Shown here: positions 1-50,297 of the stretch, one piece after another
Numbering within the stretch: position 1 is the first letter of the stretch
How the letters are laid out: each line of letters opens with the position of its first letter
Virus record (IMG/VR): IMGVR_UViG_3300030329_005612
Coordinates: 1-64,000 of that record
From: a virus
Strand: one strand, 5' to 3'
Length of the DNA: 64,000 nt
Program-made: the position numbers and the translations under genes
Notes under the pieces: generated by a model
The model's input: only the letters and a program-made list of their open reading frames with translations
Told to the model about the DNA's origin: nothing
Databases searched by the model: none

Positions 1-331
1 TAAAGTACGCCAGCTTGTCATCCACGTTTCCCGGTAAAAAACCCATTCGTTGATCTGATGCTTCCACAGAAGAACGTAAATACATCATATCAGAAATACA
101 TTTCATATTAAGAAGTTGAAGCCCACAATATACCGCCAGTAAAGTTTTACTTGTCCCTGCCGGTCCATCTACAAAAACTATCTTCGTATCCCTATGTAAA
201 GCAATTTTAAAAAATTCTTTTTGCTTTTCTGTCCAATCGAATTGATTTATTTTGATTTGTCTTTTAATAGGCTCGAAGGAAGTCATTTCGTCTTGAAGTT
301 CTTCTGCCAAAGCTCGAGTTTTCTTAGCCAT
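1..331 (-). CDS. phoH: PhoH-like ATPase, N-terminal part (cut by window edge)
   Basis: The first 110 residues are visible; the rest lies left of the window. The Walker A motif GPAGTSKT is at residues 56-63, preceded by the PhoH-like WTEKQKEFF region and followed by the MMYLRSSVEASDQRMGFLPG stretch typical of phage PhoH proteins. PhoH-like P-loop ATPases are common in marine phages, and related bacterial proteins have been linked to RNA metabolism and phosphate stress; the phage role is unproven. The start is the ATG at 331. A three-repeat Pho-box-like array lies 240 bp upstream. Confidence 0.9.
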   Translation of the reverse strand, partial: MAKKTRALAEELQDEMTSFEPIKRQIKINQFDWTEKQKEFFKIALHRDTKIVFVDGPAGTSKTLLAVYCGLQLLNMKCISDMMYLRSSVEASDQRMGFLPGNVDDKLAYF

Positions 332-520
332 GTCTGTATGTATTTACACCAATTAATTAAAAAAGTGCCCCGGGATTTTTTTAGCTTTATCGCCGCAACC
401 ATAATAAAAAGAATTAAAATATTTCAAAAACCGGGGGGGGTGGTTATTGCGCTCTTTATGTTAAAAGCATTTGTTTTGTTGGGGGAGATTGAAAATACCC
501 CCCCACCTACCTAAAACACA
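332..520. other. Non-coding leader upstream of phoH
   Basis: No convincing gene is seen here. The stretch contains G/C runs (around 430 and 497) that could pair across the leader, and AT-rich sequence just before the phoH start. The 97-codon open frame on the plus strand here has no start signal and low-complexity content, and is judged spurious. Confidence 0.5.
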
Positions 521-554
521 AAAAAAAACCACCTTTTTTTTCAAAAAGGGGGTG
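521..554 (-). terminator. Terminator-like hairpin followed by T-run
   Basis: Read on the minus strand, CCTTTTT and AAAAAGG pair and are followed by nine T residues. It would end transcripts from the 605-1109 genes before phoH. Confidence 0.5.
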
Positions 555-568
555 TCAAGTCAAATTTG

Positions 569-597
569 TTAACAGTTTGTTAACAGGGTATTAACAG
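569..597 (-). promoter_or_regulatory. Three direct repeats CTGTTAA with 11-bp period (Pho-box-like)
   Basis: On the minus strand CTGTTAA occurs three times, each separated by 4 bp (TTAACAG on plus at 569, 580 and 591). The 7-bp unit with 4-bp spacer is the architecture of PhoB-type boxes (E. coli CTGTCAT-like). It faces the phoH gene. The sequence match is partial, so binding by a host PhoB-like regulator is an inference. Confidence 0.45.
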
Positions 598-604
598 AGG
601 GTTG

Positions 605-844
605 TTAGGAGTCCAGTGCCAATGCGTCCCCCTTCCATACTCGCCTGTCGTCTCTGAAGTCTAGCACTTCATCAACACTGGCCTTGCGAATGTCTTCGAA
701 CTTTATGGTTTCCCCATATCCTTCGTCTGCAGCGTTGACTCCCCACACTCCACGACAGGGAAGAATGGTTGTGATGCGGATGGGTTCACTGGTCAGAAGA
801 TTGAACCAAATCTGACCCCGTTTGATGTTTGTTGTCTTATTCAT
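605..844 (-). CDS. Hypothetical protein, 79 aa
   Basis: I do not recognise this protein. It is a globular-looking 79 aa polypeptide with a central ITTILPCRGVWGVNAADEGYG segment. Its ATG overlaps the stop of the upstream gene (ATGAATAA), so the two are probably translationally coupled and share the operator-bearing promoter near 1116. Confidence 0.7.
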   Translation of the reverse strand: MNKTTNIKRGQIWFNLLTSEPIRITTILPCRGVWGVNAADEGYGETIKFEDIRKASVDEVLDFRDDRRVWKGDALALDS

Positions 845-1109
845 TTATAAAAAATGTTTGTCCTTCGTCTTGGGAAAAAACTTCTAATGTTTCTCCGAGT
901 CGTTGAACTGTGAGAGTGTCTAATGTTGCTCCGAAGTCATCGAAAGTGTGCCAATCGGTAATCCTCCAAAGCCCTAGTCCTTCGCTTGGTATGTCAAGCC
1001 AGCCATGTTCGGTAAGGGCTTCGTCGGTGTTAAGTGCTTTTCCTGCGAAGCTGTTTTTGGTTATAGGAATTAACCTTATGTCTGTTTGGTTGTTCATTTT
1101 CATTTTCAT
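837..1109 (-). CDS. Hypothetical protein, 90 aa
   Basis: Unrecognised. The reading frame extends to 1139, but the ATG at 1109 is preferred. It lies exactly 6 nt after a TATACT -10 box, the same arrangement as four neighbouring genes, and the N-terminus MKMKMNNQ resembles theirs. The extra upstream codons would be promoter sequence. Confidence 0.75.
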   Translation of the reverse strand: MKMKMNNQTDIRLIPITKNSFAGKALNTDEALTEHGWLDIPSEGLGLWRITDWHTFDDFGATLDTLTVQRLGETLEVFSQDEGQTFFINE

Positions 1110-1115
1110 GCGATT

Positions 1116-1152
1116 AGTATAGCATAAGAGGTGGGACATCCGCTGTCCTACT
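1116..1152 (-). promoter_or_regulatory. Leaderless promoter with GGTGGGAC operator, copy 1
   Basis: The extended -10 TGCTATACT (-10 at 1116-1121) ends 6 nt before the ATG. The inverted repeat GGTGGGAC-N7-GTCCTACT (1130-1152, right arm imperfect) covers the -35 position, where no TTGACA is seen, so a regulator probably recruits or blocks polymerase here. Confidence 0.6.
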
Positions 1153-1354
1153 TGTACATATGTTCGAGTTTTTCGTGGCGTAATTCTTTATCTACTTCTG
1201 GGGAAAATAATGGACGTTCTTCCACCTTTACTACTTCGGACTTGTGCCAGTGATAGGATGCGCGAGCATCTTCTGCGTTGCGGTGTTTGCTACCGAAGCG
1301 CGTGCCCGAAGCCATTGTGATTGTGAAGTGTTTCATGTTGTTCTTAATTATCAT
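1148..1354 (-). CDS. Hypothetical protein, 68 aa (paralogue of 2100-2273)
   Basis: The motif order FT(I/V)T...G..F....DA..AR......VEE(R/K)P(L/F)F is shared with the protein at 2100-2273, so the two are small paralogues of unknown function. The start at 1354 fits a leaderless promoter; an alternative ATG at 1336 (MKHFTITM) aligns better with the paralogue. Confidence 0.7.
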   Translation of the reverse strand: MIIKNNMKHFTITMASGTRFGSKHRNAEDARASYHWHKSEVVKVEERPLFSPEVDKELRHEKLEHMYK

Positions 1355-1360
1355 GCACGT

Positions 1361-1405
1361 AGTTTAGCACAAAAAAACGCATTTGACAAGAAAAAGTTAT
1401 TCACA
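1361..1405 (-). promoter_or_regulatory. Promoter with upstream TTATTCACA box
   Basis: The -35 TTGTCA (1384-1389), 17-bp spacer and -10 TAAACT (1361-1366) end 6 nt before the ATG at 1354. TTATTCACA (1397-1405), a match to the DnaA box TTATNCACA, lies directly upstream of the -35 with an AT-rich link. Confidence 0.6.
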
Positions 1406-1439
1406 ACATGTTAATAAGTTTATGCTGTTTAAGCACAGG

Positions 1440-1506
1440 TTGGCACGGTACTTGCTAGTAAAAATGAAGGGTGTCACCCTGCTAAGTGCTTGAGGTTCAA
1501 CGACTT
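1440..1506 (+). ncRNA. Sigma54-like site plus two-hairpin element, copy 1
   Basis: TTGGCACGGTACTTGCT (1440-1456) matches the -24/-12 sigma54 consensus TTGGCACGnnnnTTGCW. About 12 bp later come hairpin AGGGT-GTC-ACCCT (1468-1480) and stem AAGT...ACTT (1484-1506) enclosing TTGA-GGT-TCAA. The second copy at 3666 keeps the plan while changing the stem bases. No gene follows on this strand, so a small RNA is possible. Confidence 0.35.
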
Positions 1507-1516
1507 AAAAATCGGC

Positions 1517-1553
1517 GGGGGGGGACCCCCCGAAATAGTACGTGTACGTACTA
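1517..1553. repeat. Palindromic intergenic module 1
   Basis: A hairpin of eight G, A, six C (1517-1531) is followed by the 18-bp inverted repeat TAGTACGTGTACGTACTA (1536-1553, 8-bp arms around GT). Plus-strand TTATTCACA (1576-1584) follows. It lies between the gene ending at 1585 and the promoter of the 1148-1354 gene. Confidence 0.85.
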
Positions 1554-1584
1554 TATTCTGAGTGTCAAGAAAAAGTTATTCACA

Positions 1585-1860
1585 CTAGATGGTGTCCTTT
1601 ACAACACTATTTGCGATTGGGCCAAGGCTTTGAGGAGTCTTGGCGAATTGAGTAGGCTCTTGAATCTCACTGACAAAAGTGACATCCACGAATGCAATCT
1701 TGCCGCTAGTGTGGGCAATCTCAACCTCAAGGCTACGACCGTCGGCCATGACCTTGCGAACAAAGGCGGTTTTGCCAGCGAACTGACCCACGTTAATCTT
1801 GACCTCTTGATTGAGGAGGAGTTGAGCTTCTGTGATGTTGTTTTCGTTTTTCATTTTCAT
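1585..1860 (-). CDS. Hypothetical protein, 91 aa, possible KOW-like domain
   Basis: The ATG at 1860 is chosen because it lies 6 nt after the -10 box; the N-terminus is MKMKNENN. The middle part (VKINVGQFAGKTAFV ... LEVEIAHTSGKIAFVDV) has the beta-rich hydrophobic spacing of KOW-type RNA-binding domains, but this is a weak visual match. Function unknown. Confidence 0.7.
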   Translation of the reverse strand: MKMKNENNITEAQLLLNQEVKINVGQFAGKTAFVRKVMADGRSLEVEIAHTSGKIAFVDVTFVSEIQEPTQFAKTPQSLGPIANSVVKDTI

Positions 1861-1866
1861 GCGTCT

Positions 1867-1903
1867 AGTATAGCACACTGGGTGGGACATCCGCAGTCCC
1901 ACC
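1867..1903 (-). promoter_or_regulatory. Leaderless promoter with GGTGGGAC operator, copy 2
   Basis: -10 TATACT (1867-1872) ends 6 nt before the ATG at 1860. The operator GGTGGGAC-N7-GTCCCACC (1881-1903) is a perfect 8-bp inverted repeat and occupies the -35 region. Confidence 0.65.
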
Positions 1904-1914
1904 AACAATTTTCT

Positions 1915-2061
1915 TTATGGTGAAGGTGGGCAACCTTTGCCTTCAAGGCGTTTTTTCTCGTACGGTGTGAGCTTGTCGTAGTTGATGTTGCTTTTGGTTG
2001 TTTTCTTGTCTTTCATCTTATCTCTTATTCTTAAAATGTTTAACCAATCTGATCTTTTCAT
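1915..2061 (-). CDS. 48-aa basic micro-protein, MKRxxWLNILRIRDK family
   Basis: Translation gives MKRSDWLNILRIRDK followed by a Lys-rich stretch and a Cys-Pro-Pro tail. The first 15 residues are nearly identical to the 34-aa protein at 4562-4666, which supports both being real. The ATG lies 6 nt after a -10 box. Function unknown. Confidence 0.65.
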   Translation of the reverse strand: MKRSDWLNILRIRDKMKDKKTTKSNINYDKLTPYEKKRLEGKGCPPSP

Positions 2062-2067
2062 GTTAGT

Positions 2068-2104
2068 ACTATATCACAGTAGGTGGGACATCCGCTGTCC
2101 TATC
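2068..2104 (-). promoter_or_regulatory. Leaderless promoter with GGTGGGAC operator, copy 3
   Basis: -10 TATAGT (2068-2073) lies 6 nt before the ATG at 2061. The left arm GGTGGGAC (2082-2089) is intact and the right arm (2097-2104, GTCCTATC) has two mismatches. Confidence 0.55.
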
Positions 2105-2273
2105 CATTAACTTCCTCAATTTTTTCTATGGTGCGAAAGAAAGGCTTTTCCTCCACGTTCCTTTGCCAGCTTTGGCCGTCTATGATACGGCGAGCGTGTG
2201 CCGCATCATGTGCGGAAATGAATACCTCACCACCATCGGTGAATGTTACTGTGAAGATGCTTTCTTTTTTCAT
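2100..2273 (-). CDS. Hypothetical protein, 57 aa (paralogue of 1148-1354)
   Basis: The ATG at 2273 (MKKESIFTVTF) is preferred over the longer frame, which runs into the promoter. Shared motifs FT(V)T, DA.HAR and VEEKPFF link it to the 1148-1354 protein. At the usual 6-nt position after its -10 box there is ATA rather than ATG, so this member uses a leader of about 30 nt. Confidence 0.7.
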   Translation of the reverse strand: MKKESIFTVTFTDGGEVFISAHDAAHARRIIDGQSWQRNVEEKPFFRTIEKIEEVNG

Positions 2274-2300
2274 GTTGTTTCTCTTACTTTCTATGCGTAT

Positions 2301-2329
2301 AATATAGCACAAAAAATGCCACTTGTCAA
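2301..2329 (-). promoter_or_regulatory. Sigma70-type promoter
   Basis: TTGACA (2324-2329), 17 bp and TATATT (2301-2306) face the 2273 gene. TTATTCACA (2348-2356) lies upstream. Confidence 0.6.
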
Positions 2330-2372
2330 CCCTATAAATTAAAAAAGTTATTCACAGGCCATTGTTAATAAC

Positions 2373-2433
2373 TAGTACGTGTACGTACTATCGGCGGGGG
2401 GGGACCCCCCTGAGATTGAGACTCAGTCTCATT
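2373..2433. repeat. Palindromic intergenic module 2
   Basis: The 18-bp inverted repeat (2373-2390) comes first, then the G8-A-C6 hairpin (to 2410), then a third element TGAGATTGAGACTCAGTC.. whose core GAGACT-C-AGTCTC is palindromic. The last element recurs identically in module 5. Confidence 0.85.
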
Positions 2434-2478
2434 ACAGTTGTAAAACAAAAGTTATTTGCCCGCTGTTAATAAGAAGAG

Positions 2479-2554
2479 TCGCCCGCCTTACTCATCACGC
2501 TGTCTTGCTACAGGTCAGACCTCACGGCGCAAGCGTAGGTTTTCAGGCTGGCGA
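2479..2554. ncRNA. Structured 76-nt element, copy 1
   Basis: The outer stem TCGCCCGCCT/AGGCTGGCGA pairs 9 of 10 positions. Inside, ACGC...GCGT and CTTG/CAAG pair, and hairpin AGGT-CAG-ACCT tops the fold. The copy at 3808-3882 keeps the single-stranded words (ACTCRTC, ACGCTGTCTTG, GCAAGCGTA, GGTTT) while both helices change by compensating substitutions. Strand and function unknown. Confidence 0.55.
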
Positions 2555-2562
2555 TTGTTATA

Positions 2563-2676
2563 CTAAATAACAACCTTTATAAATTGCCCAGCTACAAGGC
2601 CCACAATAAAGGTTATGATGCCGATGTTAATCACGAACAAGTTGTTCGTACAGTTTTGTTTTTCTTTTGTTGTCAT
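2563..2676 (-). CDS. 37-aa single-span membrane peptide
   Basis: The short polar N-terminus is followed by FVINIGIITFIVGLVAGQF, a clear transmembrane segment, and the tail FIKVVI. It lies downstream of the 2694-2999 gene with a short gap and is probably co-transcribed with it. Function unknown. Confidence 0.55.
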   Translation of the reverse strand: MTTKEKQNCTNNLFVINIGIITFIVGLVAGQFIKVVI

Positions 2677-2693
2677 AATTATCAACAAGGATT

Positions 2694-2999
2694 TTAGTTG
2701 TTAAAAATTTCACGGTCATCCACAAAGCTATTCCAGAAGGGCAAGCGGGCAAGCTCCTCTGTGCCTTGTTCGGTTACTTTGACCAGCACCAATCCGAGGC
2801 GTTGGCGACGGTGCGCGTTCATGCCCCGATTGATTTCTTTAATGTCGTAAGGGTGAAAGCTGTGGTCAGCATAAGTGAACCGTGCATGAGTTGCGCCCTC
2901 TGCTACTGCGTTGGCGTACTTTTTCCAGTTCTCTGGGCTTAATTCTGATAGTAGGTTTTCCATAATCTTGTCTTTGTTGTCGTTCTTCATTTTCATCAT
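2694..2999 (-). CDS. Hypothetical protein, 101 aa
   Basis: Unrecognised. The ATG at 2999 (MMKMKNDN) sits 6 nt after the -10 box; the longer frame would translate promoter. It contains a helical segment NLLSELSPENWKKYANAV and a basic MNAHRRQRLGLVLVKV strand. Confidence 0.7.
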   Translation of the reverse strand: MMKMKNDNKDKIMENLLSELSPENWKKYANAVAEGATHARFTYADHSFHPYDIKEINRGMNAHRRQRLGLVLVKVTEQGTEELARLPFWNSFVDDREIFNN

Positions 3000-3005
3000 G
3001 TGATT

Positions 3006-3042
3006 AGTATAGCACAGAGGGTGGGACATTTACCGTCCCACC
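3006..3042 (-). promoter_or_regulatory. Leaderless promoter with GGTGGGAC operator, copy 4
   Basis: -10 TATACT (3006-3011) is 6 nt from the ATG. The operator GGTGGGAC-N7-GTCCCACC (3020-3042) is a perfect inverted repeat with a different loop (ATTTACC), so the arms rather than the loop are conserved. Confidence 0.65.
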
Positions 3043-3054
3043 TGTTAAATTCTT

Positions 3055-3240
3055 TTATTCCATATCCTGCCAGCTATCGCCATCGTCATAGGAAACGTAT
3101 TCGCCACCGTCTTTAAGTTCAACGTAAAGCCAGCAATGACCTTCGTGGTCTTGCTCGTTGATGCTTTTAATCTCATGCACCACCCCATCAATGATTAGTG
3201 CTTCGTCGTTGTTTGTTATCTGTATGTCGTTCATAATCAT
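3055..3240 (-). CDS. Hypothetical acidic protein, 61 aa
   Basis: It starts at the ATG at 3240 (MIMNDIQI), 6 nt after the -10 box. It is acidic, with a C-terminal DGGEYVSYDDGDSW segment. Unrecognised. Confidence 0.7.
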   Translation of the reverse strand: MIMNDIQITNNDEALIIDGVVHEIKSINEQDHEGHCWLYVELKDGGEYVSYDDGDSWQDME

Positions 3241-3246
3241 GGGTAA

Positions 3247-3283
3247 ACTATAACATAGAGGGTGGGACAATAGCTGTCCTACC
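3247..3283 (-). promoter_or_regulatory. Leaderless promoter with GGTGGGAC operator, copy 5
   Basis: -10 TATAGT (3247-3252) is 6 nt from the ATG. The operator (3261-3283) has one mismatch, and its distal arm overlaps the stop codon of the upstream gene (3283-3285). Confidence 0.6.
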
Positions 3284-3588
3284 TAAAACTTTTTCGGAAT
3301 AATTCCAGCTTCTTGATCGGAAGCACTCGATACGGAAAACCCCCTCTTGATGTAGTCCATCAACCCTTGCTTGTTGATAAAATGTTGTTCAAGCTCATTA
3401 AAATCATCCTCACCCGTTCCCATGTTGTTGGCGTGCTGTAACGCCCGAAACAAGCCCACAGCTAAATTGAATGTCTCACACTCCTTCGCTGCGGCAAGGT
3501 TCTGCTTGCGCGACTGAGGGACATAACCCCAACCAATGTGTGGAAAATGGGGAACTGTGTTTTGGTAAGGTTTTTTGCCGTTCTTCAT
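3283..3588 (-). CDS. Hypothetical protein, 101 aa
   Basis: Unrecognised. It has a basic N-terminus (MKNGKKPYQN) and a helical middle (ETFNLAVGLFRALQHANN). It has its own promoter and is the first gene upstream of the operator-controlled group. Confidence 0.7.
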   Translation of the reverse strand: MKNGKKPYQNTVPHFPHIGWGYVPQSRKQNLAAAKECETFNLAVGLFRALQHANNMGTGEDDFNELEQHFINKQGLMDYIKRGFSVSSASDQEAGIIPKKF

Positions 3589-3597
3589 TATGATGAT

Positions 3598-3643
3598 AGA
3601 CTAACAGACTTCTTAAAAAAAGTCAATAATAAACTTATTCACA
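3598..3643 (-). promoter_or_regulatory. Promoter with upstream TTATTCACA box
   Basis: TTGACT (3621-3626), 17 bp and TAGTCT (3598-3603) lie 9 nt from the ATG at 3588. TTATTCACA (3635-3643) lies just upstream. Confidence 0.55.
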
Positions 3644-3665
3644 ATCAAACTTTTTTTTTCATAGG

Positions 3666-3732
3666 TTGGCACGGAACCTGCTAGGAAAAAACGAAGGTAT
3701 AACCTAGTTAAGTTACTGAACAGCAACGACTT
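3666..3732 (+). ncRNA. Sigma54-like site plus two-hairpin element, copy 2
   Basis: TTGGCACGGAACCTGCT (3666-3682) differs from sigma54 consensus at one -12 position. Hairpin AGGT-ATA-ACCT (3695-3705) and stem AAGT...ACTT (3710-3732) enclosing CTG-AA-CAG repeat the plan of the 1440 copy with different stem bases. Confidence 0.35.
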
Positions 3733-3743
3733 AGCAGGGTCGC

Positions 3744-3780
3744 GGGGGGGGACCCCCCGAAATAGTACGTGTACGTACTA
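3744..3780. repeat. Palindromic intergenic module 3
   Basis: G8-A-C6 hairpin then TAGTACGTGTACGTACTA (3763-3780), followed by TATTCTGGGTGTCAAGAAAA and a degenerate TTATTCCCA box. The flank is nearly identical to module 1, so these two are duplicated over more than 100 bp. Confidence 0.85.
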
Positions 3781-3807
3781 TATTCTGGGTGTCAAGAAAA
3801 AGTTATT

Positions 3808-3882
3808 CCCAGCCCTACTCGTCACGCTGTCTTGGCGAGGCCTTTGGCACTACGAGCCGCAAGCGTAAGGTTTCGGGCTGGG
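3808..3882. ncRNA. Structured 75-nt element, copy 2
   Basis: The outer stem CCCAGCCC/GGGCTGGG is a perfect 8 bp pairing, unlike copy 1 in sequence but equal in position. Inner ACGC/GCGT and CTTG/CAAG pairing is kept, and the apical hairpin becomes GCC-TTT-GGC. On the minus strand the internal loop reads GAAACCTT against GACGAGTA. Confidence 0.55.
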
Positions 3883-3923
3883 AAAGCTACCACTCTGGGT
3901 ATTCATTGGCATCATGCCAAGCG

Positions 3924-4118
3924 TCATCTGCTGTCGAACCCGTAGCCGTCATGTTCAGCGTAAAAACCACAGCAACCGCAACAGGGTGCATCTTCACACA
4001 TACCCTTGGACTCGGTGGGAGTGGTAGGCTCAGGCTCGTTCGCCCAAGTCGCTGGCCCCATGTCGGCGGTGAAACTCTCCTCGCAGGAGACCTGAATCAT
4101 GTCATTCATTTCATTCAT
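3924..4118 (-). CDS. Hypothetical Cys-rich acidic protein, 64 aa
   Basis: The C-terminal CEDAPCCGCCGFYAEHDG cluster (five Cys and one His) could bind metal. The N-terminus is Met-rich and acidic. A promoter TTGGCT, 17 bp, TATAGT lies upstream. Unrecognised. Confidence 0.65.
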   Translation of the reverse strand: MNEMNDMIQVSCEESFTADMGPATWANEPEPTTPTESKGMCEDAPCCGCCGFYAEHDGYGFDSR

Positions 4119-4163
4119 TGTGGTAAGACTATAACAAAAATAGAGTCAAAAGCCAAGAAAAAG

Positions 4164-4172
4164 TTATTCACA
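4164..4172 (+). promoter_or_regulatory. TTATTCACA (DnaA-box-like) site
   Basis: An exact match to TTATNCACA lies directly upstream of the promoter of the 3924-4118 gene and immediately after the stop of the next gene. Confidence 0.45.
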
Positions 4173-4419
4173 GGTTACTCCCTGCAAGAAAATTCTCCTC
4201 GCGCCAATCATCCTCCCAGCACTGCAAATGTACCTCATTAACACGCTCGCGAAAGCGCGTTTCATCAAAGCGTGGGTGCGAACCCTTCAAACGGATACAG
4301 GTGTCGGTCAGGACTTCTTCGCGAGATTCACGGTCGCTAATCTCGCCCAAGGTACAGGCGAGAAATTCAAAGTGACGGCGGGTGAAGTTGAGGCTTGCGA
4401 TTTCTTGTTTGCTTAACAT
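4168..4419 (-). CDS. Hypothetical protein, 83 aa
   Basis: The ATG at 4419 (MLSKQEIASLNF) is 6 nt after the -10 box and is preferred over the longer frame. It is rich in Arg and Glu (DRESREEVLTDTCIRLKG). Unrecognised. Confidence 0.7.
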   Translation of the reverse strand: MLSKQEIASLNFTRRHFEFLACTLGEISDRESREEVLTDTCIRLKGSHPRFDETRFRERVNEVHLQCWEDDWREENFLAGSNL

Positions 4420-4425
4420 GGGATA

Positions 4426-4454
4426 AATGTAACACACAACCGGCTGCGGGTCAA
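4426..4454 (-). promoter_or_regulatory. Leaderless sigma70-type promoter
   Basis: TTGACC (4449-4454), 17 bp and TACATT (4426-4431) lie 6 nt from the ATG at 4419. Confidence 0.6.
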
Positions 4455-4527
4455 GGGATTTTCTTAAAAAAGTTATTCCCAAAAAAGATGCAATTGTGAA
4501 TAAAAAAAGCTTGACAACTGAGGTCGC

Positions 4528-4564
4528 GGGGGGGGACCCCCTGAAATAGTACGTGTACGTACTA
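4528..4564. repeat. Palindromic intergenic module 4
   Basis: G8-A-C5 hairpin then TAGTACGTGTACGTACTA (4547-4564). The stop codon of the 34-aa gene (4562-4564) is the last three bases of the palindrome. Confidence 0.85.
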
Positions 4565-4666
4565 ATTACGCGGTCGGCGTTTGGATGTTTTTTTAGCCTT
4601 CTCGCGAGCCTTATCGCGGTCCTTGTCGCGGATGCGGAGGATGTTCAACCATTTTTCTCTTTTCAT
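4562..4666 (-). CDS. 34-aa basic micro-protein, MKRxxWLNILRIRDK family
   Basis: MKREKWLNILRIRDK is followed by alternating Lys/Arg/Asp and a basic tail. The N-terminal 15 residues match the 1915-2061 product, and each has its own near-leaderless promoter. This suggests a small RNA- or protein-binding peptide; function unknown. Confidence 0.6.
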   Translation of the reverse strand: MKREKWLNILRIRDKDRDKAREKAKKTSKRRPRN

Positions 4667-4673
4667 TAGTAAT

Positions 4674-4702
4674 AATGTAACACAGGTTGTGCTATTTGTC
4701 AA
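4674..4702 (-). promoter_or_regulatory. Near-leaderless sigma70-type promoter
   Basis: TTGACA (4697-4702), 17 bp and TACATT (4674-4679) lie 7 nt from the ATG. TTATTCACA (4721-4729) lies upstream and overlaps the stop of the next gene. Confidence 0.6.
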
Positions 4703-4724
4703 GGGGTTTTTTAAAAAAAGTTAT

Positions 4725-5015
4725 TCACATTAAACGCACGATACCACTCGTTTGGTGCGTCGGTGGACGCATGGCACACTTGACACCCACAATATCAAAT
4801 TCCTTGCGAGGAAGCCAGCCACACCATTGGTCGTGGTTATCTGAACAAGATGAACAAAACTTGCCATGCTGAGAACAGTGAAGCAACCAACTAAACCCAT
4901 TGCTCCCGACAGCGGAGACCCGTTCAGACCAATCAAATTCTGGCCCGTGTTCAGCAATCCGGTTGCGGGTGCGGCGCGAAGAGAACGTGTTCGGTTTGAT
5001 TTCGATCATCAACAT
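4725..5015 (-). CDS. Hypothetical protein, 96 aa, possible zinc-binding
   Basis: It starts at ATG 5015 (MLMIEIKP), 6 nt after the -10 box. The middle contains HCSQHGKFCSSCSDNHDQWC, a Cys/His arrangement suited to one or two zinc ions. Unrecognised. Confidence 0.7.
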   Translation of the reverse strand: MLMIEIKPNTFSSRRTRNRIAEHGPEFDWSERVSAVGSNGFSWLLHCSQHGKFCSSCSDNHDQWCGWLPRKEFDIVGVKCAMRPPTHQTSGIVRLM

Positions 5016-5021
5016 GCTATA

Positions 5022-5067
5022 AATGTAACACGCATCCACCTAATTGTCAACACTAAAGTTATTCACA
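5022..5067 (-). promoter_or_regulatory. Leaderless promoter with upstream TTATTCACA box
   Basis: TTGACA (5045-5050), 17 bp and TACATT (5022-5027). TTATTCACA (5059-5067) lies upstream and abuts module 5. Confidence 0.6.
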
Positions 5068-5068
5068 A

Positions 5069-5127
5069 TGATACGTGTACGTACTATCTTGGGGGGAGGG
5101 CCCCCCGAGATTGAGACTCAGTCTCAT
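5069..5127. repeat. Palindromic intergenic module 5
   Basis: A variant palindrome TGATACGTGTACGTACTA (5069-5086), then a GGGGGG-AGGG-CCCCCC hairpin, then the TGAGATTGAGACTCAGTCTC element identical to that in module 2. Confidence 0.8.
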
Positions 5128-5191
5128 TCTAAATGTCGGGCGGACATTATTTATTTGTTATTTATTTACTTCTTATTTATTTATTTGTTAT

Positions 5192-23842: not shown

Positions 23843-24210
23843 CTCACAGTGATAATAGGATTATACTATATGAGAACATAAACGAGGACTTTTTTAGGTG
23901 CTTTACTTACCCACAGTTGGAAACTGCTTGCCCTACGGCGGGGTAAAACCTCGCGCACCTTTTGGGCTGTGTACCGTTGTTGGCCACACTTTGTAACTAG
24001 GCACCCAAAGAAATAGTGGATGAGAGGATTTCTGCGATACCTCTAAAGCCAGCACCCAATACAGTTCATGTTTGCCAGCTTGCCTACCCCACAAGGCTCA
24101 TACGATTGCACTCTGCCGCTGTGGAGCAACACCTTTCCCCTTGAGATACAAGGATATTCAGTCACATCCGTTAAGTTCTCCGTCGAGAACTTAAATTTTA
24201 AAAGAACAAT
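23843..24210 (-). ncRNA. Structured non-coding RNA, about 400 nt including terminator
   Basis: A consensus promoter (TTGACT 24240-24245, 17 bp, TATAAT 24217-24222) and the perfect terminator at 23812-23842 frame about 390 nt with no credible ORF. The 5-prime end has AAGTTCTC-GACG-GAGAACTT, a perfect 8-bp hairpin. Further pairings include GGTGC/GCACC near the 3-prime end. The base composition is richer in G and C than its flanks. A stretch near the middle loosely recalls RNase P RNA CR-I (GGAAAG ... GCTCCACAG), but the other conserved RNase P regions are not seen. Identity unknown. Confidence 0.7.
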
Positions 24211-46512: not shown

Positions 46513-46794
46513 TTAAAACTCATAAAGAAGTTCATTATTAAACATTATTTTAACATAATCTACCTTGCAAGTTTGTTTAATTGTTGATTTAGCAAAATCA
46601 GTTAAGGATTGCGGGATTGCATGGTATAGATCAATTGCTTGCTGATGGCGTTGCTTACGATTGCATGAACAGCCATGGGGTAGTCCCCTCATTAAGTCTA
46701 TGAATAGACGCTGCAAGGGGTCTACGACATCACCAATGCTCTGAAGCATTGCTGTCATTCCATTGAGGTCAGAGACTATTAATTCATTCCTCAT
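46513..46794 (-). CDS. Hypothetical protein, 93 aa
   Basis: Helical, with GCSNR-like GLPHGCSCNRKQRHQQAIDL in the middle (two Cys, two His). Overlaps the next gene by ATGA. Unrecognised. Confidence 0.7.
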   Translation of the reverse strand: MRNELIVSDLNGMTAMLQSIGDVVDPLQRLFIDLMRGLPHGCSCNRKQRHQQAIDLYHAIPQSLTDFAKSTIKQTCKVDYVKIMFNNELLYEF

Positions 46795-47150
46795 AAAGTA
46801 GCAATCCTAACTATTATAAAATAGATTACCAAGCTTAACAAATAAAGTAAGCAAAAATAAACTAAACCTATAGCCAAAGAAATAAAGAAAGAATACCATA
46901 TTCCCAAACAGAATGGACAGGTAATAAGTCTAGTAATGAAGCAATCTTTCCTCACGGTGAGAAAAGAAATGTAATCACCACTATAATCTTCACGAACATA
47001 CTCCTCGTATTCATCAAGACATAACATTTTATTTAATTTAAAAAGCCTTCCATATTCTACAACAGCATTCGTTTTAAACCAGACTGTAAATATAAAAGAA
47101 ATAAATGAACTAAAAATTAATAAAAGCTCAATATTTATCACCTTAAACAT
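46791..47150 (-). CDS. Membrane protein with CPFC motif, 119 aa
   Basis: About three spans: LLLIFSSFISFIFTVWF, LGIWYSFFISLAIGLVYFCL and LYLLSLVIYFIIVR. The loop ITCPFCLGIW resembles DUF1360-like small membrane proteins. It could be thiol-linked or bind metal. Unknown function. Confidence 0.65.
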   Translation of the reverse strand: MFKVINIELLLIFSSFISFIFTVWFKTNAVVEYGRLFKLNKMLCLDEYEEYVREDYSGDYISFLTVRKDCFITRLITCPFCLGIWYSFFISLAIGLVYFCLLYLLSLVIYFIIVRIATL

Positions 47151-47237
47151 CTTAGCAATTATATAAGTTCTAATTTAATTTAACAAAATTTTTGTTGAAA
47201 AAGTGTGATAACTTTTCTCGGAACATTAGGAGACACT

Positions 47238-47262
47238 AGTACCCCCCCAAAGGGGGGATACT
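47238..47262. terminator. Perfect C6/G6 hairpin at the 3-prime end of the 47-kb RNA
   Basis: AGTA-C-CCCCCC-AAA-GGGGGG-A-TACT forms a 10-bp stem readable on either strand, without a following T-run. It could end the RNA or cap its 3-prime end. Confidence 0.5.
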
Positions 47263-47604
47263 GTATTTAGTGTGTGTATATAACTTTTCTTCGGCCCCTT
47301 TAAATTATTTAATGCGGAGGGGATTTGAAACTCCGCGACACAAAATACTGGCGATTAACTAAAATCGCGATAGCCTACCACTAAATGGCGGGAGGGACTG
47401 TGCTCAAAAACTCCGCTTACGACTATCTACCACAACACGCTGGGCATTGCCATAGTAATTAACTATGCGTCCTTGTTCTCGTGTATTTGAAACGAGAGGC
47501 TACCCTTTGATCTGGAAGTAAGCCAACTTCCCCCCTACTGCATTCGGTTTGTCTCAGGAAACTCCACTGATTACTCTCAGCGAGCTTAAAAGGAATTCCG
47601 CCTT
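47263..47604 (-). ncRNA. Structured non-coding RNA, about 365 nt
   Basis: A promoter (TTGACA 47634-47639, 17 bp, TATCAT 47611-47616) overlaps the dUTPase stop and no ORF follows. Perfect local hairpins recur on the minus strand: GGAAGT-TGGCTT-ACTTCC, CATAGT-TAATT-ACTATG, TCTCGT...ACGAGA with a TTTCAAAT loop, GCGAT...ATCGC, and GCGGAG...CTCCGC with a second TTTCAAAT loop. The word GCGGAGTTT occurs twice. A D-arm-like GCC-ATTTAGTGGTA-GGC is present, but no tRNA fold closes. It is not a recognised tmRNA. Confidence 0.65.
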
Positions 47605-47610
47605 TTGGGT

Positions 47611-47639
47611 ATGATAATACCCCTAGAAGGATTTGTCAA
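47611..47639 (-). promoter_or_regulatory. Sigma70-type promoter of the 47-kb ncRNA
   Basis: TTGACA (47634-47639), 17 bp and TATCAT (47611-47616). The TTGA overlaps the dUTPase stop codon. GGGTAT-TATC-ATACCC spans the -10. Confidence 0.65.
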
Positions 47640-48151
47640 CTATTTATGAAACCCGTACTCCCAAAACCTTTTGGCCCCCGGAAACTTTCTCCAAGCTGAT
47701 CTACTTCTTCCCACTCAATTTCTTGACACTTTTCAATTATTAATTGGGCAATTCTATCTCCTCTGTAAAAATTTATACTTTTATCACAGCCGAAGGAAGA
47801 CTTCTCAGAATTAACACTAGTTACCCACGCTTGGGAATTATATTTTTTTTCAAAAAGAGAAGAAGGTAAATTTAAGTTAATAATAATAATTTTTATCTCC
47901 CCCCGATAACCTGAATCAATAATACCTCCGAGAATATGTAAACCCTTGTTTACAGCTAGGCCGCTGCGCGGAGCGATTCTTCCATAGTATCCCTCAGGAA
48001 TTTCTATACAAAGACCAGTGGAAACACAGGCCCTTTGCATGGGGCCTAAAATAATAGGGTCTTCAGTATGCAAATCATAACCAGCGTCACCCGGTAAAGA
48101 TTTACGCGGGAGAGAGATACCCTCATGTGCTCTGGTGATATTAATTTTCAC
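47636..48151 (-). CDS. dut: dUTP diphosphatase, 171 aa
   Basis: The five dUTPase motifs are present: PGDAGYDLHT, GRIAPRSGLA, GGIIDSGYRGEIKI, RGDRIAQLII and the P-loop-like GPKGFGSTG at the end. A 25-residue insertion (SSLFEKKYNSQAWVTSVNSE) sits between motifs 3 and 4. It hydrolyses dUTP to dUMP, feeding ThyX. Confidence 0.95.
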   Translation of the reverse strand: MKINITRAHEGISLPRKSLPGDAGYDLHTEDPIILGPMQRACVSTGLCIEIPEGYYGRIAPRSGLAVNKGLHILGGIIDSGYRGEIKIIIINLNLPSSLFEKKYNSQAWVTSVNSEKSSFGCDKSINFYRGDRIAQLIIEKCQEIEWEEVDQLGESFRGPKGFGSTGFINS

Positions 48152-49883: not shown

Positions 49884-50297
49884 ATGACTGTTTTAGAAGG
49901 CTCAGGCAAATTATTTGAATGGTTTTCGCAAAAGGATAAATTTAATTTTGATGAAGACATGGGAAAACTATTACCAAAAGCAAAAAAAGAAGAAAGGGCT
50001 GCAATTAAATGTGCTCTTGAAGAATTTGAAAAAATGGATGTTCTCAAATCTACAGATATCAACGCTGAAAGATACTGGATTTTAAACAAAAAATTTGATA
50101 CCTTTGAGCAAGACCTCAAGATTTCACCCAAAACAGGATTACTTATTTCACAATTAATTAATAATTTTTGTGAAATTCTAGAGATAGAAGATGAAGAATG
50201 CGATCCGCGCAACATCACCGAACAAGATATTAATAATCTTCTGTTGATATGTTATCGCTTCATAGACAACAAGGAAACCGACCCCTCTAAAAACTAA
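49884..50297 (+). CDS. Hypothetical protein, 137 aa
   Basis: ATG 49884 (MTVLEGSGKLFEWF) is preferred over the longer frame, which runs through the promoter. It is helical and acidic. Its last base overlaps the next ATG (TAATG). First gene of the rightward half. Unrecognised. Confidence 0.75.
   Translation: MTVLEGSGKLFEWFSQKDKFNFDEDMGKLLPKAKKEERAAIKCALEEFEKMDVLKSTDINAERYWILNKKFDTFEQDLKISPKTGLLISQLINNFCEILEIEDEECDPRNITEQDINNLLLICYRFIDNKETDPSKN

Follow-up and report, generated by a model that had tools for sequence, protein, structure and literature searches.

Features of the locus downstream of dut

On the minus strand of the window, by which we mean the whole analysed stretch of 64 000 nt from a phage record of 67.6 kb, the dUTPase gene dut (47636..48151; Pfam PF00692, 2.7e-32) is followed by a promoter, about 375 nt free of ORFs, a G/C hairpin and a gene for a DUF1360-like membrane protein (46791..47150). 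No ORF of at least 60 aa was found between the dut stop (47636) and the DUF1360-like start (47150), in good agreement with the original prediction, which had placed a long structured RNA of about 365 nt without an ORF after dUTPase, and the promoter that it had described as overlapping the dut stop codon was likewise present. This sigma70-type element, TTGACA-N17-TATCAT (47611..47639, minus strand), extends from the TTGACA beginning at 47639 to the TATCAT ending at 47611, with 11/12 matches and a 17-nt spacer, and its position relative to the RNA is conserved in relatives. GGGTAT-TATC-ATACCC, the hairpin that comes first in the stretch, coincides with the -10 region of the promoter, so that the RNA probably starts at about 47605, at AAAAGG. 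We delimit the putative structured RNA gene as 47230..47605 (minus strand), on the grounds of the missing ORF, the homologues and the covariation presented below, with approximate, sequence-inferred ends, the first some 7 nt beyond the -10 box and the second just past the G/C hairpin.

Following the RNA in its own direction, always on the minus strand, a 5' hairpin AAAAGG-CGGAATT-CCTTTT (47587..47605), found in most family members, precedes a conserved core (47345..47476; match to covariance model R1 with 103 bits, E 3e-20) that contains a 7-bp hairpin, a CAAUGC/GUGUUG hairpin and a three-way junction with a conserved AGCACAGU loop. Next comes a strand here called the G strand, GTATTTTGTGT (47338..47348), pairing with the 3' half of the repeat R1 and the bases following it (47276-47263). 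Enclosed within this pairing lies the pseudoknot hairpin GCGGAG-TTTCAAATCCC-CTCCGC (47314..47336), whose loop TCCC pairs with GGGG at 47298-47295. R1 itself, CCGAAGAAAAGTTATATACACAC (47272..47294), constitutes the last ~25 nt of the RNA before the terminator-like G/C hairpin AGTATCCCCCC-TTT-GGGGGGGTACT (47238..47262), which had also been foreseen as the closing element and has a stem of 11 bp in the window copy. Directly after the hairpin, in A+T-rich DNA, stands a second copy of the repeat, R2, CCGAGAAAAGTTATCACAC (47203..47221), whereupon a separate promoter-like site at 47186-47158 precedes the DUF1360-like gene. On the plus strand, at 49884..50297, the window carries a gene for a protein of ~137 aa, designated WF, with a predicted winged helix and C-terminal helices.

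A conserved fold in a family of phage RNAs

Homologues of the RNA were found in 28 IMG/VR contigs besides the window's own record, giving about 29 uncultured phage sequences in total. Two degenerate DNA patterns matched 18 and 27 contigs, respectively, the total of 28 including one contig (L094) missed by both. Alignment-based searches with dNMP kinase and dut gave additional loci, in five of which nhmmer located the RNA, at the same site in three and elsewhere in two, and a dut search gave a relative (L002) where dut overlaps the DUF1360-like gene with no RNA between them. The first RNA pattern had no match in 84 980 cellular genomes, and RNA queries against named phages produced chance-level matches only; a match in Vibrio phage Va1 was discarded as chance, with no RNA at that place, as were the 14 matches of an exact 16-mer scan (GCGGAGTTTCAAATCC), which look like chance. 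As judged from these searches, the RNA founds a new family whose carriers form a lineage of uncultured phages. One member (L156:3555-3895) has an RNA core close to that of the window together with a different 5' part, which suggests that these phages exchange RNA modules.

Single-sequence folding of the window copy gave an only moderately low energy (z -2.96, with 1/100 shuffles as good). Folding alone is weak evidence, and covariation across relatives is decisive. RNAalifold on 17 sequences yielded 41 pairs, 23 of them changed on both sides, and in the core structure of the 17-sequence alignment 91.4% of cells were paired, with both-side changes in 21/33 pairs and a covariation score of 0.530, compared to 0.216 for shuffles and at most 0.123 for slid controls. 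Members kept out of the training set (L149-L152 and L154-L157) were retrieved by the covariance model with E values from 1e-15 to 1e-25; apart from these and the training members, the loci searched contained no match. Applied to 31 phage records, it gave a single good match per record in the 15 that bear the RNA (up to 178 kb), two of these showing an additional marginal match, and no good match in the 16 related records without the RNA.

The 3' part of the molecule was also conserved. An H-type pseudoknot inside an enclosing helix, formed by the G strand with R1, could be drawn in 25/25 members tested, with a mean score of 37.6 vs 16.6 in shuffles, and the loop pairs vary in compensation (CCCA/TGGG, CCCG/CGGG, GCTT/AAGC, GGCTA/TAGCC). 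The pairing between G strand and R1 is phage-specific (permutation p < 5e-5); base pairing between the 5' region and either repeat copy gave no phage-specific signal. A closing helix AGCTC/GGGC proposed by RNAalifold was rejected, since one member (L096) is unable to form it and the GGG strand suits the covarying pseudoknot better. The conserved fold, as predicted from these comparisons, consists of the 5' hairpin, hairpin arms, a three-way junction and the 3' H-type pseudoknot within a long helix.

That the RNA would contain tRNA-mimicking parts, as had been proposed, is refuted at the level of sequence comparison. The two hairpins with the same TTTCAAAT loop, the repeated word GYGGAGTTT and the hairpin GCC-ATTTAGTGGTA-GGC on which the proposal rested are all present in the window, so that words resembling a D-arm and a T-loop do occur in this copy, and ARAGORN identified a tRNA-Leu gene 2 kb away. 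Apart from this gene and a tRNA-Arg, both elsewhere in the window, no tRNA or tmRNA was detected by ARAGORN, and none at the RNA locus. Moreover, the 'D-arm' is one arm of the conserved three-way junction with a loop that differs per phage (CCC-TATAT-GGG, CCT-GTAAAA-AGG etc.), and the second TTTCAAAT loop is the pseudoknot loop, reading ATGTCCCA in most relatives and TTTCAAAT in common only to the window and its nearest relative (L154); loops thus vary in the relatives while the stems are kept and most of them covary. Mimicry of tRNA or tmRNA, like the decay of a former tRNA cluster, is accordingly a most improbable account of this RNA.

No match at gathering score was obtained for the window RNA among the 4227 families of Rfam 15, including GOLLD, ROOL, manA, tmRNA, RNase P, 6S and introns; scores in a permissive scan (E up to 10) all lay far below gathering, and the RNA of five homologous loci gave no match at E up to 1. 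The assignment to tmRNA or to a cluster of degenerate tRNAs that the original prediction had listed as counting against it was thus not seen at the locus. Its statement that the RNA differs from a second one at 24 kb also held, as the latter is manA (RF01745, 64.7 bits; window 24013-24191, minus strand) and the dut-side RNA matches no Rfam family.

A unit with its own promoter and changing neighbours

Across 25 relatives, a TTGAC[AT]-N17-TANNNT box lies ~25-33 nt ahead of the first conserved RNA box in most members, scoring at least 10/12 in 8/25 compared to 2% of shuffles. A hairpin comparable to the G/C hairpin of the window was found in 25/25 members, and in most of them a T-rich stretch comes next; only 4 T in 9 are present in the window copy, where termination is doubtful because a U tract is lacking. 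In many phages the unit from promoter to R2 lies between the 3' side of WF and the 5' side of dNMP kinase; in others, the window among them, it is flanked by dut and the DUF1360-like gene. Promoter, terminator, fold and a position independent of neighbours, as expected for a free-standing structured RNA gene, were thereby all found on the sequence evidence, with the terminator of the window copy being imperfect, and the RNA appears to be a dedicated non-coding gene that travels as a unit.

This arrangement bears directly upon the possibility of a cis-acting leader or riboswitch for the downstream gene. In the window, the RNA does precede the DUF1360-like gene and shares its strand, and phages are known to carry cis-regulatory RNAs such as manA. 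However, a leader should be tied to one fixed downstream gene on its own strand, and the genes downstream of the RNA differ among phages and are on the opposite strand in several. In about half of the cases the hairpin and a separate promoter-like site stand between the RNA and the next gene, and R2 does not compete for the G strand (see below). We consider such a cis-acting role improbable.

The R1/R2 repeat, the WF protein and a second RNA

Within a phage the two repeat copies are far more alike than copies from different phages are (28.4 vs 18.0; permutation p < 5e-5, n=25), and in most members a base of R1, at a constant position, is missing from R2. That R2 could take the place of R1 in pairing with the G strand was ruled out, as its pairing with that strand is not phage-specific (p 0.26), and a role of R2 as a genome-wide operator was ruled out because no further copies of R2 were found in 10-64 kb of the same phages. 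A simple target-site duplication was also set aside as the origin of the pair, since independent decay would not hold the copies alike in each phage. With R1 and R2 coupled, no pairing of R2 with the G strand and no third copy, the likeliest explanation, as read from these alignments, would therefore be a shared, diverging partner outside the RNA. Repeats of another kind at the left end of the window are a separate matter from R2. About nine copies of AAGAAAAAGTTATTCACA, on the plus strand at 1388-5070 and on the minus strand at 9437, lie among short ORFs; they contain a DnaA-box-like TTATTCACA, and at least one copy stands immediately upstream of a minus-strand sigma70-like promoter. The G+C content of window 1-12000 is higher (~0.42-0.47) than that of most of the remainder (~0.33-0.41).

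A mobile or catalytic RNA resembling an intron or a guide RNA, with the repeat as the mark of its insertion or target site, could account for the unit being found at different sites and for the resemblance of R1 in the RNA to the adjacent R2 in DNA. Against this stand the absence of any intron or other Rfam match, the lack of a nuclease, transposase or reverse transcriptase among the neighbouring window genes checked, and two features of the repeats: they bracket the hairpin alone instead of the element, and the sequences of R1 and R2 consistently differ by a one-base gap. We hold this alternative to be very improbable.

WF, a protein of ~140 aa in a 31-sequence alignment, gave an AlphaFold winged-helix model with pLDDT 90, for which the fold matches to winged helices were all weak, with no Foldseek E at or below 0.001. 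It reached neither Pfam cut-offs nor any PHROGs family, and none of the named phages carries it. In all loci with sufficient flanking sequence (29/29), WF lies in the vicinity of the RNA, the loci outside this count being short pieces, and it also occurs in phages without the first RNA. This co-occurrence is not proof of an interaction, because the linkage may be mere synteny.

In the WF phages devoid of the first RNA, the site 3' of WF holds a different non-coding region. One class of these, in 28 contigs (L167-L194, e.g. L168:2780-3300 and L190:1640-2150), is a second, unrelated structured RNA with the signature GGCCCGUAAAAAGRC ... GUUAUUUCGGG, having both-side changes in 29/49 predicted pairs and no match in Rfam. 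WF lies 63-822 nt upstream of it on the same strand in 27/28, and the two RNAs never occurred together in the sequence pieces examined. This second RNA has an R1/R2 pair of its own, with repeat AAAGGATAAGCAGTCA and variants, that co-varies in the same manner (41.0 vs 30.7, p < 5e-5). Unexpected as it was, this second RNA class is the strongest hint that WF, both RNAs and the repeats are one system. Many of its copies begin with a boxA-like GTTCTTTGTTA. Yet another type of non-coding region on the 3' side of WF, the third (L018:5606-5990), with the direct repeat TTTTAAAGGGAAGT / TTTTAAGGGAAGT, matched none of the RNA models and patterns used.

Considering these features jointly, the main rival to an RNA acting in trans is an origin module, in which WF would be a replication initiator, R1 and R2 its DNA sites, the A+T-rich stretch the DNA that opens, and the RNA a primer or copy-control element. 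The DNA after R2 is indeed A+T-rich (50-84%), the predicted fold of WF is a winged helix, and the cumulative GC skew of the window has its minimum at 48-50 kb, at a distance of 1-2.5 kb from the RNA, at a divergent gene junction and beside the tRNA-Leu gene, with a skew sign change near the RNA also in two other phages (G017, G018). The skew is, however, confounded with gene direction and gives little signal in G020 and G022; furthermore, there are only two repeats, with R1 inside a structured RNA, the RNA-R1-R2 unit is apart from WF in several phages, and one would not expect a primer to have a terminator-like hairpin ahead of the putative opening site. We regard this role as unlikely. Plasmid modules such as ColE1 RNA II and rep-CIS-ori combine a structured transcript near the origin with an initiator-like gene and a terminator close by, and the layout here, near a candidate origin, is loosely similar to theirs; the likeness seen is one of layout.

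A probable trans-acting RNA and its relation to known systems

The best explanation as a whole, to which we assign a probability of about 0.5, is that of a free-standing RNA gene of the phage, most likely expressed early and acting in trans by protein binding. Host RNA polymerase would make the RNA early in infection, the transcript would be released at the G/C hairpin, and it would act in trans as a folded, protein-binding RNA. Its likeliest partner would be the neighbouring winged-helix protein WF, or else a host nucleic-acid enzyme, with the RNA word R1 and the DNA word R2 possibly being two sites for one diverging protein. More tentatively, one may imagine a two-part system of WF together with either of two unrelated, interchangeable RNAs at one locus, each with a fast-evolving R1 word copied downstream as R2, constituting a new RNA-dependent control of early transcription or replication.

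By kind, the first RNA joins the orphan structured RNAs of phages, such as GOLLD and ROOL, and belongs to no Rfam family. GOLLD is a large, elaborately folded phage RNA, often near tRNAs and with a universally conserved 3' region (PMC12286853), exceeding 800 nt in many members, whereas the RNA described here has no Rfam match, other neighbours, a promoter of its own and the R1/R2 pair. ROOL is a structured RNA of phages and prophages that contains several pseudoknots and for which no protein partner is known (PMC12286853); the first RNA, again without Rfam match, occurs together with WF at every locus able to show it. The manA and wcaG motifs are structured RNAs from T4-like cyanophages and from marine metagenomes (PMC2864571) and are thought to sit in 5' UTRs, unlike the first RNA, which matches neither family and seems to form a separate transcription unit. 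In the open-licence papers searched we found no description of the RNA, its linkage to WF, the R1/R2 pair or the swap with the second RNA, although an earlier account elsewhere is possible.

Large structured phage RNAs without known function, such as GOLLD and ROOL, are a standing puzzle, to which a smaller and strongly covarying family is now added. This family offers a candidate protein partner next door in the form of WF, a natural experiment in sister phages having an unrelated second RNA at the same site and, with the co-varying R1/R2 repeat, a direct handle for a partner search.
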